Assembly: GCA_022641835.1 (NCBI GenBank)
Contig: CP048727.1
Span: 1-64,000, forward strand
DNA length: 64,000 nucleotides
From: Petasospora fabianii
Taxonomy: Eukaryota; Ascomycota; Saccharomycetes; Phaffomycetales; Wickerhamomycetaceae
Direction: 5' to 3'
The stretch's first letter is position 1; each line of letters begins with the position of its first letter. Both the position numbers and the translations under genes were made by a program. This document shows, piece by piece, positions 11,099-17,797 of the stretch. The notes beneath the pieces are model-generated. The model was not told the DNA's origin and searched no databases. It worked only from the letters and a program-made list of their open reading frames with translations.

Positions 11099-13204
11099 AT
11101 GTTCGCTGCAGTACTTACGCGTCACGCTTCGATCTCTATCTCTGTGACCTTAAACCAATCCTTCTTACCACATCAAGCCCAGGAAATGACAGTCGAGAAG
11201 AGAGCGAAGCACGACTCTTCGATACCTCGAAGAAAGCGTCGTATGGTAAGTCACAGGCCCAATCATGGGCTCTCGCCATCATCGACTGCCAATGACTTCT
11301 ATAAAGTCATCTCCCGCTTCAACGACTTTCAAGATCTCGTCGAGCTGGCCAAACATTTGTCACTATACAATGAGCTACGAAACGTGCTGAATGTGGCATC
11401 TGATATCCATGATCTTCCCGAGCTGCCGAGGAGCCTCGGCCAGCTGAGGCGTACACCACTCACCAAGGCACCAGGGCCAGACACAATCAATGTTGTCGTC
11501 TTGACGAGTAAGTCTAACACCAAGGCCGAAGTTATCGAAAAGAACTTTGTCAGAAAAGACTGTTACACATTCTTCCTCATGACTGATTTGATTGCATGTG
11601 AAGCAGAAGGTGATGTCCTTAACCTCCGCTGGATGAGAGACGATTCTCCCATCAAGAGTCTCAAAGTTGACCACGGAGTGATAATCTCACTCAACTCATA
11701 CTTCACACTCACAGGTGCCACAAACATAAGCGTCACGTTCAATATACCAGATGTCAAGGAACTGACCCTCTCTAGAATTCCAGACCCAACATGTCTTTAT
11801 CCAACATCACCAGCAGACCTCACTGTCATTGATACTCCCGACACATGGTCATGTGCTATTCATCTCGACACTGTAAAGACTCTGCACGTTGCATCAACTC
11901 TCACAGAGTCCACACTCATTGGGATACGAAATCTGTATATGCCAGCCCTGGAGAAGCTCACTGCTGACAATCTCAACTACTTCGTGTTCTCCGATTTTCC
12001 TAAAGCCAAGACCATCCATGTGAATATCACACCCAGAACGTCTAATCAGCAAAGACTCGTTGTCCCTGAAATAACCGGAATCAAAGCTCCAAAGTGTTAT
12101 GATATGGCTATTGGCTACGAACTTGTATCAAACAAGTATGTCAAATCCACAGAAGGCTGGGTGATACCGGAAATCACTCAAGTCAAGGGTGCCCGTCGTT
12201 GGAATCTGATGCTTACCCGTGGTGCTAAGAGTGATCCGAAAGCCATGATTGATGTAATAGAGCATTTTGGCCTCCGCTACAGCGAACCACACCCTACGAG
12301 AGGACAAAGAAGACCCATTTTTGACAAATTGAATCAGGCAAATGATATGAATGTATGCATGAGGAACGGTCTTGATCATTTAAAGAGTCTGGACTTCCTG
12401 TCACTTCAGCAATCGCTCTCTTTCCCTCATGATGGTGAGTTTTATGATCCCAACGGACTTATCGAGAACCCAGCGTTCCTGCCACTTCTTGAGTGTTTAC
12501 ATTTGGGATACGAACCCCACGAGCCAGCAGGTCCAGACACTTTGAGCGCTAGGGCCAAATCCACCATCCATTGCTTTGGGTCAGCACCAAGGTGCCGGTA
12601 CTTCCTCGTAAGTAACAAAGGTCCTGTGGACTACACTCACATTTCCAAGTATTTTTATCGCATTACTGCTCTGATGGTTGGTACCTGTTCAAAGTATGAC
12701 ATACTTGACAGAAAGAGATTCATCTTCCCAAGACTCGAACAGGTGAAGCTATGCTTTGATAATATGGTTCTTATGAGAGAGTTCATTAATGCTGCTCATG
12801 TCAAGTCTCCAATTAGGGAGCTGACCATTAGACAACTTGGTGATTGTGAGAATCCAACAGAGGGTGATGTGAATGAAATTCAGGCTCTGTTGGATGACCT
12901 ATCACTCTTGGGAAAGACACTTCAGAAGATATACTTTGTCCAGAAGTTTGGCATGAGGATACAGACATTAGAGATAAAGAACCTGCCCAATGTGGAAGAT
13001 GTTAAGATTGTCAGCTCAGAGGGATTGGATGTTAGCGGATGTCCGCTGCTGGAGAATATCACACTAGGTAAACCTCATTCAGAGAAGAACGGCGATTGGG
13101 TCACAAGACCATTGATATTCGGCTCAACAGTGAAGCCCATTGGCACAGGTAGTGTCTATGTTGGTGAAGACGATCTCTACGATTGGTTAGAAGAAACTGC
13201 GTGA
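11099..13204 (+). CDS. Uncharacterised leucine-rich, F-box-type family protein
   Basis: 701 residues from the first ATG; the ATG at 11186 (MTVEKRAKHD) would give 672 and avoids a leader that looks non-coding. A basic, possibly nuclear-targeting stretch RRKRRM follows. The body consists of irregular leucine-rich strands with phrases such as LYMPALEKLTADNL, FPKAKTIHVN and LEIKNLPNVEDVKIVSS, which resemble a degenerate LRR solenoid. I cannot see a clear F-box, though the segment at about 65-95 (DFYKVISRFNDFQDLVELAKHLSL) sits where one would lie. It is tail-to-tail with a similar leucine-rich gene that does have an F-box, only eight bases between stops, so the two may be diverged relatives. Function unknown. 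Confidence 0.7.
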   Translation: MFAAVLTRHASISISVTLNQSFLPHQAQEMTVEKRAKHDSSIPRRKRRMVSHRPNHGLSPSSTANDFYKVISRFNDFQDLVELAKHLSLYNELRNVLNVASDIHDLPELPRSLGQLRRTPLTKAPGPDTINVVVLTSKSNTKAEVIEKNFVRKDCYTFFLMTDLIACEAEGDVLNLRWMRDDSPIKSLKVDHGVIISLNSYFTLTGATNISVTFNIPDVKELTLSRIPDPTCLYPTSPADLTVIDTPDTWSCAIHLDTVKTLHVASTLTESTLIGIRNLYMPALEKLTADNLNYFVFSDFPKAKTIHVNITPRTSNQQRLVVPEITGIKAPKCYDMAIGYELVSNKYVKSTEGWVIPEITQVKGARRWNLMLTRGAKSDPKAMIDVIEHFGLRYSEPHPTRGQRRPIFDKLNQANDMNVCMRNGLDHLKSLDFLSLQQSLSFPHDGEFYDPNGLIENPAFLPLLECLHLGYEPHEPAGPDTLSARAKSTIHCFGSAPRCRYFLVSNKGPVDYTHISKYFYRITALMVGTCSKYDILDRKRFIFPRLEQVKLCFDNMVLMREFINAAHVKSPIRELTIRQLGDCENPTEGDVNEIQALLDDLSLLGKTLQKIYFVQKFGMRIQTLEIKNLPNVEDVKIVSSEGLDVSGCPLLENITLGKPHSEKNGDWVTRPLIFGSTVKPIGTGSVYVGEDDLYDWLEETA

Positions 13205-13212
13205 TTGCATTA

Positions 13213-15090
13213 TCATATACTTACCCAACTAGCCTGTGTATGGGCTCGACTAATGCTGTATTGCTGACGGTTGTCGTCTTTCCAACCATCACAGCTTAGG
13301 GTCCTGTTCGTGCATTTCATATCTTTCTCGATCATCGAAGCGGTCATACCTTCTGGTTTACAATAGCTGAAATACCGCAGCTTGGGCAACCGGCCTGTTG
13401 TGATCTTTTCAAGTTCATCATTGATCTCCAAGGATTTTAGCATCTCAACATTTTCTAAGATAAGATGTTTGACAGTGTTTGAGAAGAACAGTGACGACAG
13501 ACTTGGCAGATCAGTGATCTTAACAGAGCTTTCAAAGAGGAAACCAAAGATTGTTAACGTCTTGAGAGAACCAGCAGTCAGGCATATCTCAAGAGGGCCG
13601 GGCACAGCTTGCAGATCAGAGATATAACTCCCTATATGCAGTTCCTCCAGTTCAGGGAGCACCAGATTGAACTCATTATACGGTTGAAACAGCTCCAATG
13701 GTGCACCTTTAAACGTCCGAAGTGTGTTGTGACCCTTCCTTTTGAAGTATCTTGCCATCTTACGGAGAACATCATCACTCAATGGCGCACAAACGCGTAA
13801 GATGTCCAGTTTGGTGAGAGATCCCATGAGACCCAGGACTTTTGGAAGATTTTCCACCATACTTTGTGGTGCATCTCGTGGGGTTTCAAGGATATAAGTG
13901 CATGCGCTCTGTGCGTCAAACTCTGGTATTGATGCGACACAGTTGCTCTTGATTGAGATGTTTAGATTCTTTATGGCTGGTAAGTGGATGAGCCTGTCTT
14001 TAGGGAAAGTGTTGACAATACTGAGATTGAGTGTAGTAAGATGATCAAAAGAGGGGCATTTGCACAACGCATCATTGAGACTGTCCACCGTGAGAGTGGA
14101 GACACTGCGTAAGAAGGAAAAGTCGGAATCAGGGGAGCTTGCATCTTTCACAAGTGTTCTGCCGTCAACGCCAACAGGAGTATATGGTTTAATGGAGAAT
14201 TCTTTTAATACTGGGGAGTGGATATTCGTCATCATCACTGTTGATCTTTCAGACAGTAAAAACTCGAAGTGAAGCTCTATAATGGAAGGTGCATCAATGT
14301 TTTGAATCTTAACGTTGTCACCAAGTCTCACCAAGCTCATTTTAGTACATTTGGGCAATTCAAGACCAGAAATTGATGAGATGGGACTGTCGATGAGGAT
14401 CGATTCCGCTGCCAATACCTTATCTTCAATATGACTTTCACCATTCTGTCGCCCATAGACTCTCAGAAGATGCGTAGGGCATTTGGAGAAATCGGTACAC
14501 TGGAACAACCTTTCCACGTCCCCTGATTCGTATGTAAAGATTTCGACATTGGAGAGATACCACTCAACTGCGCCTCTCTGGCAATTATTACCGATAGGTG
14601 AAATGGAAACGTACCTACAGTCTTTAAAGACCAAGTTACGCGGGTATTTAGGACAATCAACTTGAGAACAGATCTTATTCGAGTTCATCTTTAACACTTT
14701 GCATATCGGACTTTCAAAGAAGTTCCTTATCGTGGACTGGTCCGTCAATACCACGTTCTTATAGTCCAATACTAAGATGTTGAACGTATGTTTGAAGCTA
14801 TTATAGACACGCTCAAGATCTTCTCTTCGCCATTCTTTCAATTCGATGATATTGATATGACCATAAAAGCTTTGATTTAGGTCTTCTGTTGTCAGACGCT
14901 TGGGCCGGATTCTTGTTGTCCTTACGAGCTTATGAGTGATATGCGATCCGTCATTCGTATTGGTGAAGAGAGCAAATAGTGGAGAGAAGGTTTCTCCTTT
15001 AGTGTAAAGAATGTTAAGGATATCCTCTGGTGTAAGATTCTTTAGAACTTCAAGCTGAAGTTCAATAGGCAGTTGCCTGAGGAGGTCCAT
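13213..15090 (-). CDS. F-box protein with leucine-rich solenoid
   Basis: 625 residues. The first 35 residues, MDLLRQLPIELQLEVLKNLT..DILNIL, match the F-box pattern (LPxEL, then a hydrophobic helix), the site that binds Skp1 in SCF ubiquitin ligases. The rest is a leucine-rich solenoid with strand-like units (LKEFSIK, VSTLTVDSL, LTTLNLSIV, LKTLTIFGF, LEELHIGSY). Such proteins usually recruit substrates for ubiquitylation. No S. cerevisiae ortholog is evident to me. The gene overlaps at transcript level with its convergent neighbour, since only eight bases separate the stops. Role as an SCF receptor is inferred from the F-box. Confidence 0.72.
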   Translation of the reverse strand: MDLLRQLPIELQLEVLKNLTPEDILNILYTKGETFSPLFALFTNTNDGSHITHKLVRTTRIRPKRLTTEDLNQSFYGHINIIELKEWRREDLERVYNSFKHTFNILVLDYKNVVLTDQSTIRNFFESPICKVLKMNSNKICSQVDCPKYPRNLVFKDCRYVSISPIGNNCQRGAVEWYLSNVEIFTYESGDVERLFQCTDFSKCPTHLLRVYGRQNGESHIEDKVLAAESILIDSPISSISGLELPKCTKMSLVRLGDNVKIQNIDAPSIIELHFEFLLSERSTVMMTNIHSPVLKEFSIKPYTPVGVDGRTLVKDASSPDSDFSFLRSVSTLTVDSLNDALCKCPSFDHLTTLNLSIVNTFPKDRLIHLPAIKNLNISIKSNCVASIPEFDAQSACTYILETPRDAPQSMVENLPKVLGLMGSLTKLDILRVCAPLSDDVLRKMARYFKRKGHNTLRTFKGAPLELFQPYNEFNLVLPELEELHIGSYISDLQAVPGPLEICLTAGSLKTLTIFGFLFESSVKITDLPSLSSLFFSNTVKHLILENVEMLKSLEINDELEKITTGRLPKLRYFSYCKPEGMTASMIEKDMKCTNRTLSCDGWKDDNRQQYSISRAHTQASWVSI

Positions 15091-15217
15091 AGTTGAATAC
15101 TAGACACAATACCGATCACTACATGGCTATCATGAAGAGAACCCATCATCAAGAGCCCTAAGTCCCCAAACTTCCTCATTTGGATATTTCTCAAGACTTT
15201 TTCATTGAGGGCATCTG

Positions 15218-15254
15218 GTCACGTGCAGCGACTGCCGCGAGCCCCAAAAATTTT
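15218..15254 (+). promoter_or_regulatory. Cbf1-type GTCACGTG plus AAAAATTTT element
   Basis: GTCACGTG at 15218-15225 and the RRPE-type AAAAATTTT at 15246-15254, about 105-140 bases before the splice donor. RRPE elements mark ribosome-biogenesis genes in yeasts, which fits a snoRNA gene. Confidence 0.5.
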
Positions 15255-15310
15255 CGATAGACTTTTCACCATTCATCTCTTCTCTTTACTCTTTATTCTT
15301 CCTTTAACAA

Positions 15311-15348
15311 GGACACGTTATAGTTTTGGACAAAGGTATAGCGTGTCC
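15311..15348 (+). other. Stable 12-bp hairpin in exon 1 of the snoRNA host
   Basis: Left arm GGACACGTTATA (15311-15322) pairs with TATAGCGTGTCC (15337-15348) with one G-U wobble and a 14-base loop. It lies 10 bases before the ATG at the splice donor and could block scanning ribosomes or be an RNA processing signal. Confidence 0.6.
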
Positions 15349-15361
15349 ATCTTTGGCAATG

Positions 15362-15587
15362 GTAAGTCTATACATTTTAGACCTCAAATCGGTTCCAATT
15401 GATGGTATGGATGTATTCTGATGAGTCACAAGATAGGGACAACTGAGCTTTATGCTTGAAGAGAAACGTCTTACGCATGTTTTTAGTAGAACTTTTGCAC
15501 TTCTGATACATACATCCACTTCACGTTTAACAAATGGAGTTTTGAGATTATCATTCATTGGATTATTTGACTAACATTGAATCACAG
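15362..15587 (+). other. Intron of the snoRNA host gene
   Basis: 226 bases, GTAAGT donor, TTGACTAAC branch with the acceptor CACAG 13 bases after the branch A. It is the longest inferred intron here and it contains the C/D box RNA. Confidence 0.72.
15408..15518 (+). ncRNA. C/D box snoRNA, probable snR64 type
   Basis: An intronic 2'-O-methylation guide. A perfect 9-bp terminal stem (TGGATGTAT at 15408-15416 with ATACATCCA at 15510-15518) encloses box C CTGATGA (15418-15424) and box D CTGA (15503-15506). An internal D' CTGA lies at 15443-15446 and a weaker C' TTGAAGA at 15456-15462. Before D' the 11 bases AGATAGGGACA (15431-15441) are complementary to the 25S rRNA stretch TGTCCCTATCT. The D-box-plus-five rule points to the first C of TGTCCC, which I recall as Cm2337, the snR64 target of S. 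cerevisiae. The guide before box D (TTTTGCACTT) has no target I can name. The fold is strong; the snR64 name rests on memory of the rRNA sequence. Confidence 0.75.
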
Positions 15588-15650
15588 TTATCAATTAGAA
15601 GTGTACAATTGAATGAACGATCTCATCCCAAGACATAGTTATTCTTCTCT

Positions 15651-15899
15651 CTTGTAGGACATTAATTCGACAATAACTAGATGGAGTTACTGATCATTTC
15701 AAGTGTTTCAACCTTACTGTCGTTTTAAAGTCCATTGGGTGCCTTTCTAACGACATAGCCTTCGAAATGGGGCCCTCGCAACACATAGACAAGCTCAGCT
15801 ACAAACAAGACAATTGACAATATTATGGAGATCGTGAATCATTAAAGTGTGGACAGAAGCGAGCGTTAAAATCAGTAGTATCATAACTATATGTTTAAA
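15651..15899. other. Spacer between snoRNA host and LrgB-type gene
   Basis: About 250 bases of AT-rich sequence that should hold the 3' ends of both convergent transcripts. Nothing else recognised. Confidence 0.5.
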
Positions 15900-17797
15900 T
15901 CACTCCAAGCCAACCCAGCTTCTTATGACACTGGCCAAAGGTGGGATGGCTGCAAAGATAACCATAAGGGTACCAAATAATGTGAAAGCCAATGAGCTCA
16001 TAGCACCAGCTCTTGGATCGATACTTAACAGATGTGCAGTAGCAATAGCTGAACAATTGAGACCTAATGTTATACCTCTTGTAACGTAATCATCCTCTCT
16101 AATCTTCATCCATTTGAACATCTTTTGACCAAACAAGGCACCAAGAATACCAGTCACAACGGTGGTACAAGCCATCAATTGTTGTGATCCTCCAAGGGAG
16201 TCTTCAAAAGGTGTACCAAGGGCAAGTGTCACTGAGCGCCCGGCAAACCCGAGAGAGTTCTCTGGTGAGAGACCAAGTTTGTAGCACACAATTGGATATA
16301 TGAAGAAATTTGTCACAGTCATAAAGATAATCACAGGGACAATTTGAGAGAAATGACGTATAAGATCATCACGGTAGTTGAACATTGAGATGGAAAGGGA
16401 GACAATTGAGCAATCCATAAGTGTAGAGAACACATCACCAGCACCTGGTGGCTTATTTGTTTGGCGATGATTGAATAAGCGAAGGTAATTTCTTCCAGTC
16501 TTGTACTGACGAAGACTATCGAGGAAGTCTTCATGTTTCATCAATGAAAAGATATAATAGAGCAACCACGAGATACCAACTGAGCAGAGAACTGGATGAA
16601 GGTACTTTCTCCATTTTGGTGGTGGAACATTGATCATAAAGAGGAATGTGAATATGGAGATGCTGAGGTGAAGTGGCATTGCATAGTCAAGAGTGAAGTA
16701 GATTGGAAGTGAGACAATGAACAGGGTAGTGAAAACCATGTAATCAAAGTTATTCTGAATGAAGTAGGCAATCTTCAAATGACGCTCAATTTGCTGTGTT
16801 TGAGCCAATGACGCTCTTCTGCAAAACAACTTGTTTTTAGTTTCGATAAAGATGTTGACACTACCTTTTGACAAAGGTTTAGCAACTGGTGAAGGCGGAG
16901 ATGGTATCCCACCATCGGTTGATGGGTCAGTTGAATGGCTATTGGAAATGATATCATCCATTGTAGCAGCAACTTCAAATTCACGTCTTTGAGTTGCTTG
17001 TCTCGATAGTGTTATAGACCTGCGATACTGAAGTTCGAGTTCGTCTTCATCACCACGTGCAATATCATCCAAGACATTCTGTGGAACCTGTCTTAAAGTG
17101 TCTACTGGACTGAGTAATCCTCCAATAGAGTTGGATCTTGAGTGAGTTGGTGAGCTTTCATTTGACTCCTCCAACTTGGAGGTGTTCTCAATGTTTTGTT
17201 CATTTTTGTAAGAAGATGTCGATGCACCAAGGTTAGACTCCTTTGATGATTCTAGTTCCTCTGCTCTTTCAACAGTTGATCTTCTAGTCTTCTTAAACAA
17301 TCTCTGCATGAGAACCGTTGCGTATGCCATCCCCACCATTGCCAAGACGAAACCGACAATGAAGATGGCAGCAATGGTGAGTGCCTCACGAGCGCTAATC
17401 CAGGAGCTAAGTGGCAAAGGGATAAAAGCTGGTGTGAAGAAGATGTTGATCCATCTTAGGGCAAACCCAGCGGGGATATTGATGATCTTGACGATCTGTG
17501 AAACCTTGTGTTTCCATTTGAGTGATGCGAGACACAGCGAGATGAACAGCGCAAGCATGAGTGCCACAGAGGCAGGGAAGTGGAAGTCTATACCTTCATT
17601 GATACCATATAAAGCACAGAGCATCAATAGGAGCCCAATGGGCACCTTGATATACGATTCAATGATATGATCTTTACTTAGCCTGACGCCCTGATAAAGA
17701 GTTAGTTATTGAACGGGATGAGATTAGATGACAAGCACAGCGACAACCACCAACGCACCTTCACAACGCCCTTGAAAATGTCGTTAACGAGCGACAT
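15900..17797 (-). CDS. LrgB/CidB-type membrane protein (spliced)
   Basis: Exons 17759-17797 and 15900-17690 join in phase to a 609-residue protein starting MSLVNDIFKGVVKGVRLSKDHIIESYIK. The N-terminal half has four or more hydrophobic segments (LrgA-like), then a charged, probably cytosolic loop of about 170 residues rich in Ser, Glu and Arg. The C-terminal third matches the LrgB family: GRSVTLALGTP, CTTVVTGILGALFG and IDPRAGAMSSLAFTLFG. Bacterial LrgAB and the fused plant protein PLGG1 are membrane transport or permeability proteins; PLGG1 carries glycolate and glycerate. In fungi the substrate is unknown, so no gene symbol is given. The 68-base intron has a GTGCGT donor and AACTAAC branch. 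The first exon codes 13 residues. Confidence 0.83.
17691..17758 (-). other. Intron of the LrgB-type gene with GTGCGT donor
   Basis: 68 bases, AAG|GTGCGT donor, AACTAAC branch and TTATCAG acceptor. Without it the long second exon has no ATG before the conserved N-terminal hydrophobic region. Confidence 0.82.

Follow-up and report, generated by a model that had tools for sequence, protein, structure and literature searches.

The 64,000-nucleotide stretch of Petasospora fabianii DNA analysed here, referred to below as the window, poses the question of whether a C/D box snoRNA is carried in the intron of a gene whose exons encode no protein, and by what route such a snoRNA would be released from its precursor. 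A sequence-only reading had proposed a gene of this kind on the forward strand. The locus is best explained as a spliced gene that encodes no protein and is dedicated to hosting the C/D box snoRNA snR64, a reading to which we assign a probability of about 0.88 and from which any RNase III step is excluded. At the level of the DNA, the snoRNA family, the intron signals, the complementarity of the guide, the shortness of the reading frames and the presence and recurrence of a hairpin in exon 1 are established.

snR64 and its probable host gene

A match to the Rfam family RF00509 (snosnR64) spans positions 15413-15508 of the plus strand, with a score of 58.3 bits against a gathering threshold of 38 (E = 5.8e-07, whole 64-kb window). 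It is the sole Rfam snoRNA at gathering thresholds in the 64-kb window, and in the genome (12.3 Mb, 16 contigs), where the 49 best candidates were scored, no other match to RF00509 was reported; no second copy of the locus was reported. Within 15100-15900 no second snoRNA was found in the host by Rfam (E <= 1), and the below-gathering match to Afu_335 falls on the snR64 stretch itself. Together with its terminal stem, in which TGGATGTAT is paired with ATACATCCA over 9 bp, the snoRNA occupies 15408..15518 on the plus strand. The box C core TGATGA (15419..15424), preceded by a C where the consensus has a purine, box D' (CTGA, 15443..15446) and box D (CTGA, 15503..15506) are evident on this strand both in the sequence and in the Rfam alignment, and the stem and boxes stand as previously proposed.

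Across the stretch AGATAGGGACAAC, in which the guide is contained, the sequence agrees letter for letter with the Rfam family consensus. The D' guide itself, AGATAGGGACA (15431..15441, plus strand), is assigned by rRNA complementarity to Cm2337 of the 25S rRNA (S. cerevisiae numbering). All 11 of its 11 nucleotides are complementary to positions 2703-2713 of a eukaryotic LSU rRNA (L043), and G15438, at position D'+5, faces C2706 of this molecule, which bears out the earlier claim of complementarity near Cm2337 on a foreign target, whose contig is catalogued as part of a bacterial MAG. The foreign rRNA was used because two LSU rRNA patterns gave 0 matches in the yeast's own assembly, from which the rDNA may be absent; seven stretches on viral contigs match a 16-base rRNA pattern, none of the seven with an rRNA family match. 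In the passages of PMC2806949 that concern it, snR64 is tied to the methylation of C2337 in 25S rRNA. Beyond the guide, TTTTTAGTAGA at 15480-15490 of the window is likewise conserved across the snR64 family in the Rfam consensus. The TAGTAGA within it (15484..15490, plus strand) is complementary to the rRNA sequence TCTACTA, which overlaps the guide target and then runs past it, and might possibly provide snR64 with an additional rRNA pairing.

The snoRNA lies within a spliceosomal intron at 15362..15587 on the plus strand, and direct inspection confirms the full set of signals that had been described, namely GTAAGT (15362-15367), the branch site TTGACTAAC (15567-15575) and CACAG (15583-15587). 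By these signals exon 2 begins at 15588. When intron candidates were collected from both strands of the window with a loose pattern, the branch site TTGACTAAC was found in one of the 19, that of the host alone. It is also the branch site in the intron of a PF08079 gene (L041), which we read as RPL7 and whose intron holds a weak snR39 match (34.4 bits against a gathering threshold of 40), and it occurs twice in the snR51 locus. Host exon 1 (15262..15361, plus strand, 5' end assumed) ends at the GTAAGT, with its sole ATG at 15359-15361. Exon 2 (15588..15700, plus strand, 3' end provisional) is unstructured (folding z +2.40) and without a long frame, no ATG-started frame of more than 16 aa being found through 15900. 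Once the exons are joined, no ATG-started frame exceeds 17 aa, as counted in this one genome, which is the very limit that had been given before. The exons of the snR64 host thus appear to be without protein-coding capacity, which would make the host a non-coding gene, and the presence of an intronic snR64 in a host without visible protein is supported. An antisense frame of 84 aa (15304-15558), without a Pfam match, is taken as spurious.

Upstream of the host exons, the A/T motif AAAAATTTT (15246..15254, plus strand), which we take to be an RRPE-like promoter element, is located 116 nt ahead of the 5' splice site. A/T motifs like AAAATTTT are found in 7/10 of the snoRNA host loci considered below versus 8/67 control stretches, the hosts being represented by 194-300 nt of sequence leading up to the first 5' splice site (less than 300 nt in two loci) and the controls by the 300 nt ahead of long ATG frames, a differently anchored set. 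The divergent neighbour (13213-15090, minus strand) comprises a 625-aa frame which starts at 15090 and has no Pfam match at E 0.01. It converges with a second large frame (11099-13204, plus strand), for which there is likewise no Pfam match at E 0.01, and both have an F-box/leucine-rich look by eye. On the other side, the converging neighbour is an LrgB family gene that ends at 15900. In the protein kinase A gene, set against a PDB relative, CUG codons occur on conserved leucine residues at 3/3 sites, a comparison of one protein that leaves out four CUG codons of a TRP3-like gene; the host yeast is therefore probably not one of the CTG-Ser yeasts.

The exon-1 hairpin and its recurrence

While the intron and snR64 stand as first described, a 16-bp hairpin in exon 1 had been overlooked. 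It occupies 15311..15348 on the plus strand and consists of 12 bp, a 1x1 mismatch and 4 bp, with the loop GGAC at 15328-15331. This amounts to 16 bp in all over 17 positions per side, with a folding energy of -20.7 kcal/mol, and the hairpin ends 13 nt ahead of the 5' splice site. The folding z-score reaches -6.28 for the 48 nt cut around the hairpin and -3.65 for the 100 nt of exon 1, none of 200 shuffles being as good in either case.

Either an Rfam family or a splice-site-to-box pattern led to each of the ten snoRNA host loci of this genome, some being picked by eye from the match lists but not by folding. Cluster III is an exception in that the first GTAAGT upstream of its verified snR51 was chosen while its sequence was visible, and a snoRNA in its first intron is only putative. 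When the 90 nt that precede the first 5' splice site were folded against 300 shuffles, eight of the ten host loci had z <= -2, namely snR64 (-3.78), cluster I (-2.58), cluster II (-2.23), snR190 (-2.06), snR67 (-4.0), snR60 (-2.2), snR71 (-3.06) and cluster III (-4.78). The two others, the queried snR13 (-0.13) and snR68 (-1.31), are both weakly supported loci. With 100 shuffles and cluster III left out, z <= -2 was obtained in 6/9 hosts (snR60, -1.47), and the best 60-nt fold in 110 nt gave z <= -2 in 5/7 loci (snR60, +0.19; the queried snR13, +0.73). In the eight hosts with z <= -2 over 90 nt, pairing ends 1 to 22 nt ahead of the 5' splice site.

The same cut-off was reached, at 100 shuffles, by 4/78 stretches preceding long ATG frames and 1/59 stretches upstream of other GTAWGT sites (5/137 pooled), these controls being ATG-upstream and pseudo-5'-splice-site stretches, not first exons of spliced protein genes. 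Among the hosts' own flanks it was reached by one of ten upstream (the queried snR13, -3.06) and none of ten within the intron. Nine host loci differ from each control set with a Mann-Whitney p of 2e-5, while Fisher p-values of 1e-8 (8/10 hosts against 5/137 controls, shuffle depths mixed) and 6e-5 (8/10 hosts against 1/20 own flanks) were obtained. A hairpin before the first 5' splice site thus recurs in most of the sampled host loci.

In S. cerevisiae, Rnt1 is known to act on the U5 3' flank. Here this flank carries an AGUU loop on 7 bp, and AGNN loops may therefore be in use in this yeast. In the parts of PMC13183374 that deal with Rnt1 substrates, the loops bound are AGNN and, more weakly, UGNN, and the cuts are placed at a distance of 14 nt on the 5' side of the loop and of 16 nt on its 3' side. 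With its 17 positions per side, the stem of the snR64 hairpin suffices for this cutting distance. Its loop GGAC is neither AGNN nor UGNN, for which reason the loop was rejected as proof of RNase III. Elsewhere, an AGUU loop is found on a 7-bp stem in cluster III, the pentaloop AGUGG on 9 bp in cluster I, an AGAC loop in a small second stem of 5 bp in snR67, whose main loop is GUUG, and an AGAU loop on a 3-bp apical stem in snR71; the main loop of cluster II is GAUG, not AGNN. Counting stems of at least 5 bp with loops of 4-5 bases, AGNN loops occur in 3/10 hosts versus 2/78, 2/59 and 62/1422 in the background, and with stems of at least 7 bp in 2/10 hosts versus 0/78, 0/59 and 7/1422, an excess which, with few cases, is suggestive. 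The exon-1 hairpin may tentatively be regarded as an entry site for an RNase III of the Rnt1 type, which would remove the capped leader or destroy the spliced exons.

Release of snR64 and competing explanations

In the proposed mechanism, RNA polymerase II would transcribe the host from the short region that separates it from the divergent gene starting at 15090. The intron would be spliced out, the lariat debranched and then trimmed back to the snoRNP, and the joined exons discarded. snR64 would guide 2'-O-methylation of the 25S rRNA at the C that corresponds to C2337 of S. cerevisiae. Cutting of the exon-1 hairpin by RNase III could constitute a second route beside splicing, a step which we put forward with somewhat less than even confidence.

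That the exons represent a short protein gene, either through the 17-aa peptide started by the ATG at the end of exon 1 or through undetected introns that extend a conserved frame, is very improbable. The location of this ATG at the splice junction, from which the 17-aa joined frame is read, would suit such a gene, and an ATG is found at the splice junction in many yeast ribosomal protein genes. The peptide is, however, limited to 17 residues, the joined exons contain no other ATG frame above 16 aa through 15900, and it is there that the converging LrgB-type gene ends. The other nine sampled hosts also speak against it, as the longest ATG frame that starts in exon 1 and passes the first junction measures 0 to 55 aa over all ten loci when 150 nt of sequence ahead of the first 5' splice site are joined, over the first intron, to the 300 nt beyond. 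An improbable, though less far-fetched, explanation is that snR64 is derived mainly from an unspliced, independent transcript, with RNase III cutting it at the hairpin and Rat1 doing the trimming, and that the intron signals are remnants. The strong hairpin upstream of snR64 would fit this route, as would the 5' stem-loop cut by Rnt1 that the pertinent passages of PMC5934358 ascribe to most C/D pre-snoRNAs of S. cerevisiae. Yet the snR64 loop is not AGNN, and the intron signals, being of full consensus and sharing their branch site with the RPL7-like gene, are unlike decaying signals.

The purpose of the hairpin is a separate matter, and it is conceivable, though less likely than not, that it binds no RNase III but aids the recognition of the first exon or 5' splice site, or keeps the ligated exons from being translated. 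The short distance of 1 to 22 nt between last paired base and 5' splice site in eight hosts is consistent with such roles, as are the main loops of snR64 (GGAC), snR67 (GUUG) and cluster II (GAUG), none of which is AGNN. RNase III nevertheless provides a better explanation for the AGNN-type loops, which occur on stems of varied length in 4/10 hosts and also in the U5 3' flank. Very little weight can be given to the view that the recurrence of the hairpin stems from chance, base composition or the choice of loci. The host loci number only ten, some eye-picked from pattern matches, cluster II, snR190 and snR60 are near z -2 and the controls are without first exons of spliced protein genes, but the Mann-Whitney and both Fisher tests argue against this view, and the loci, cluster III partly excepted, were chosen without folding.

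U74 lies in GAS5 in animals, where hosts of the GAS5/UHG type contain multiple snoRNAs and many introns, while the snR64 host has a single snoRNA in a single intron. Mitrovich et al. (2010) reportedly described spliced, non-coding hosts of snoRNAs in Candida and its relatives. The suggestion that dedicated spliced hosts are known mainly from animals is contradicted by what the relevant sections of PMC5033589 and PMC2780460 report for Candida and Neurospora, and by the further intronic snoRNAs present in the same genome. The snR64 host is, as far as the DNA can tell, real and of a kind already known in other fungi. In the snoRNA gene passages of PMC5033589, about half of the Candida snoRNAs are intronic, and the transcripts that carry them, mono- or polycistronic, mostly lack coding potential, a likeness that extends to the nested splice sites sharing a G, which occur here in the snR57-55-61 cluster. 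Those species are CTG-Ser yeasts, whereas CUG corresponds to leucine at the 3/3 sites of the one protein compared here, and the snR64 host represents one well-marked case of the described kind, probably outside the CTG-Ser clade. The portions of PMC2780460 on clusters liken the Neurospora cluster hosts to UHG, give U74 as the snR64 counterpart, so that GAS5 resembles the present host in this respect, and list the Neurospora crassa snR64 homologue CD36 as intronic with a D' guide to the equivalent C, the coding status of its host not being stated in that row. No exon hairpin of spliced hosts appears in the stem-loop and Rnt1 passages of PMC5033589, nor any exon hairpin in the relevant passages of PMC2780460. 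None was mentioned in the titles and abstract openings covered, a scope outside which Mitrovich 2010 and Canzler 2018 fall; a prior description in either of these is possible.

With the Rnt1-processed snoRNAs of S. cerevisiae, as treated in parts of PMC5934358 and PMC13183374, the snR64 host shares a stem-loop in the 5' extension, with a stem that fits the 14/16-nt cut, but here the hairpin accompanies an intron and has the loop GGAC. In the excerpted account of PMC12508059, the S. pombe mamRNA-snoU14 precursor similarly combines an RNase III signal and an intronic snoRNA; its Pac1 site spans the exon-exon junction, whereas the hairpin here lies wholly in exon 1. The RNase III sites in Table 1 of that paper lie in introns or span an exon-intron or exon-exon junction, with none wholly within exon 1 ahead of the 5' splice site.

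The recurrent exon-1 hairpins would matter more than the host gene itself, bearing as they do on the loss of introns from snoRNA hosts, a question raised by Saccharomyces, in which spliced hosts were replaced by RNase III-processed transcripts. An exon hairpin would allow 5' processing independently of splicing, and introns could therefore decay later with the snoRNA being kept. The snoRNA hosts of this CUG-Leu yeast, if their first exons do hold an RNase III hairpin while the introns stay intact, might represent an intermediate toward the Rnt1-processed transcripts of Saccharomyces, a speculative view that we hold with limited confidence. In a yeast whose transcripts combine the two signals, the replacement could be put to the test by removing one signal at a time.

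Other snoRNA loci of the genome

Besides snR64, the snoRNAs snR57, snR55, snR77, snR75, snR73, snR190, snR51, snR67, snR60 and snR71 are also located between intron signals. Their Rfam scores include 92.3 bits for snR51 and 57.1 bits for snR71 against a gathering threshold of 60, with the weak loci snR68 and snR13 reaching 40.1 bits (gathering 80) and 35.5 bits (gathering 47), respectively. Shared-G splice sites, GCAGTATGT and CCAGTAAGT, surround snR57 and snR55 in the snR57-55-61 cluster (L032 1000-2200, minus strand), and no clear CTAAC branch site was seen by eye downstream of snR61. At the snR190-U14 locus, intron signals are found around snR190, not clearly around U14.

A genome pattern combining box C, box D and branch site produced 52 matches versus 37 in the reversed control, and loci were obtained for 30. 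One of these (L003) is snR73 of cluster I, and six further loci have no Rfam match. A second pattern yielded 54 matches versus 22 in the control, with loci for 30 and 16 of the 24 others examined, the remaining matches, coding-looking or in the window, being left out. A third gave 45 versus 15, five of which were picked by eye, three of these five having full intron signals. The host sample is incomplete because the pattern matches were examined in part and some were picked by eye.

Cluster I (L075 2513-3990; contig C1, ~99,000-100,500) contains snR77, snR76, snR75 and snR73 above the gathering threshold, and snR78 and a member of the U27 family, which we read as snR74, below it. No GTAHGT occurs just ahead of snR76 and the snR74-type snoRNA. 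These two snoRNAs seem to lie in exons between introns, and cluster I is perhaps a mixed intron/exon cluster. Among its internal exon pieces, z <= -2 is found in 2/5. Exon 2 contains the hairpin GAATAC[AGGT]GTATTC, the exon as a whole having a z of only -0.87, and a further hairpin, GAGGG[TGTT]CCCTC, follows the snR74 position in a stretch with a z of -2.9.
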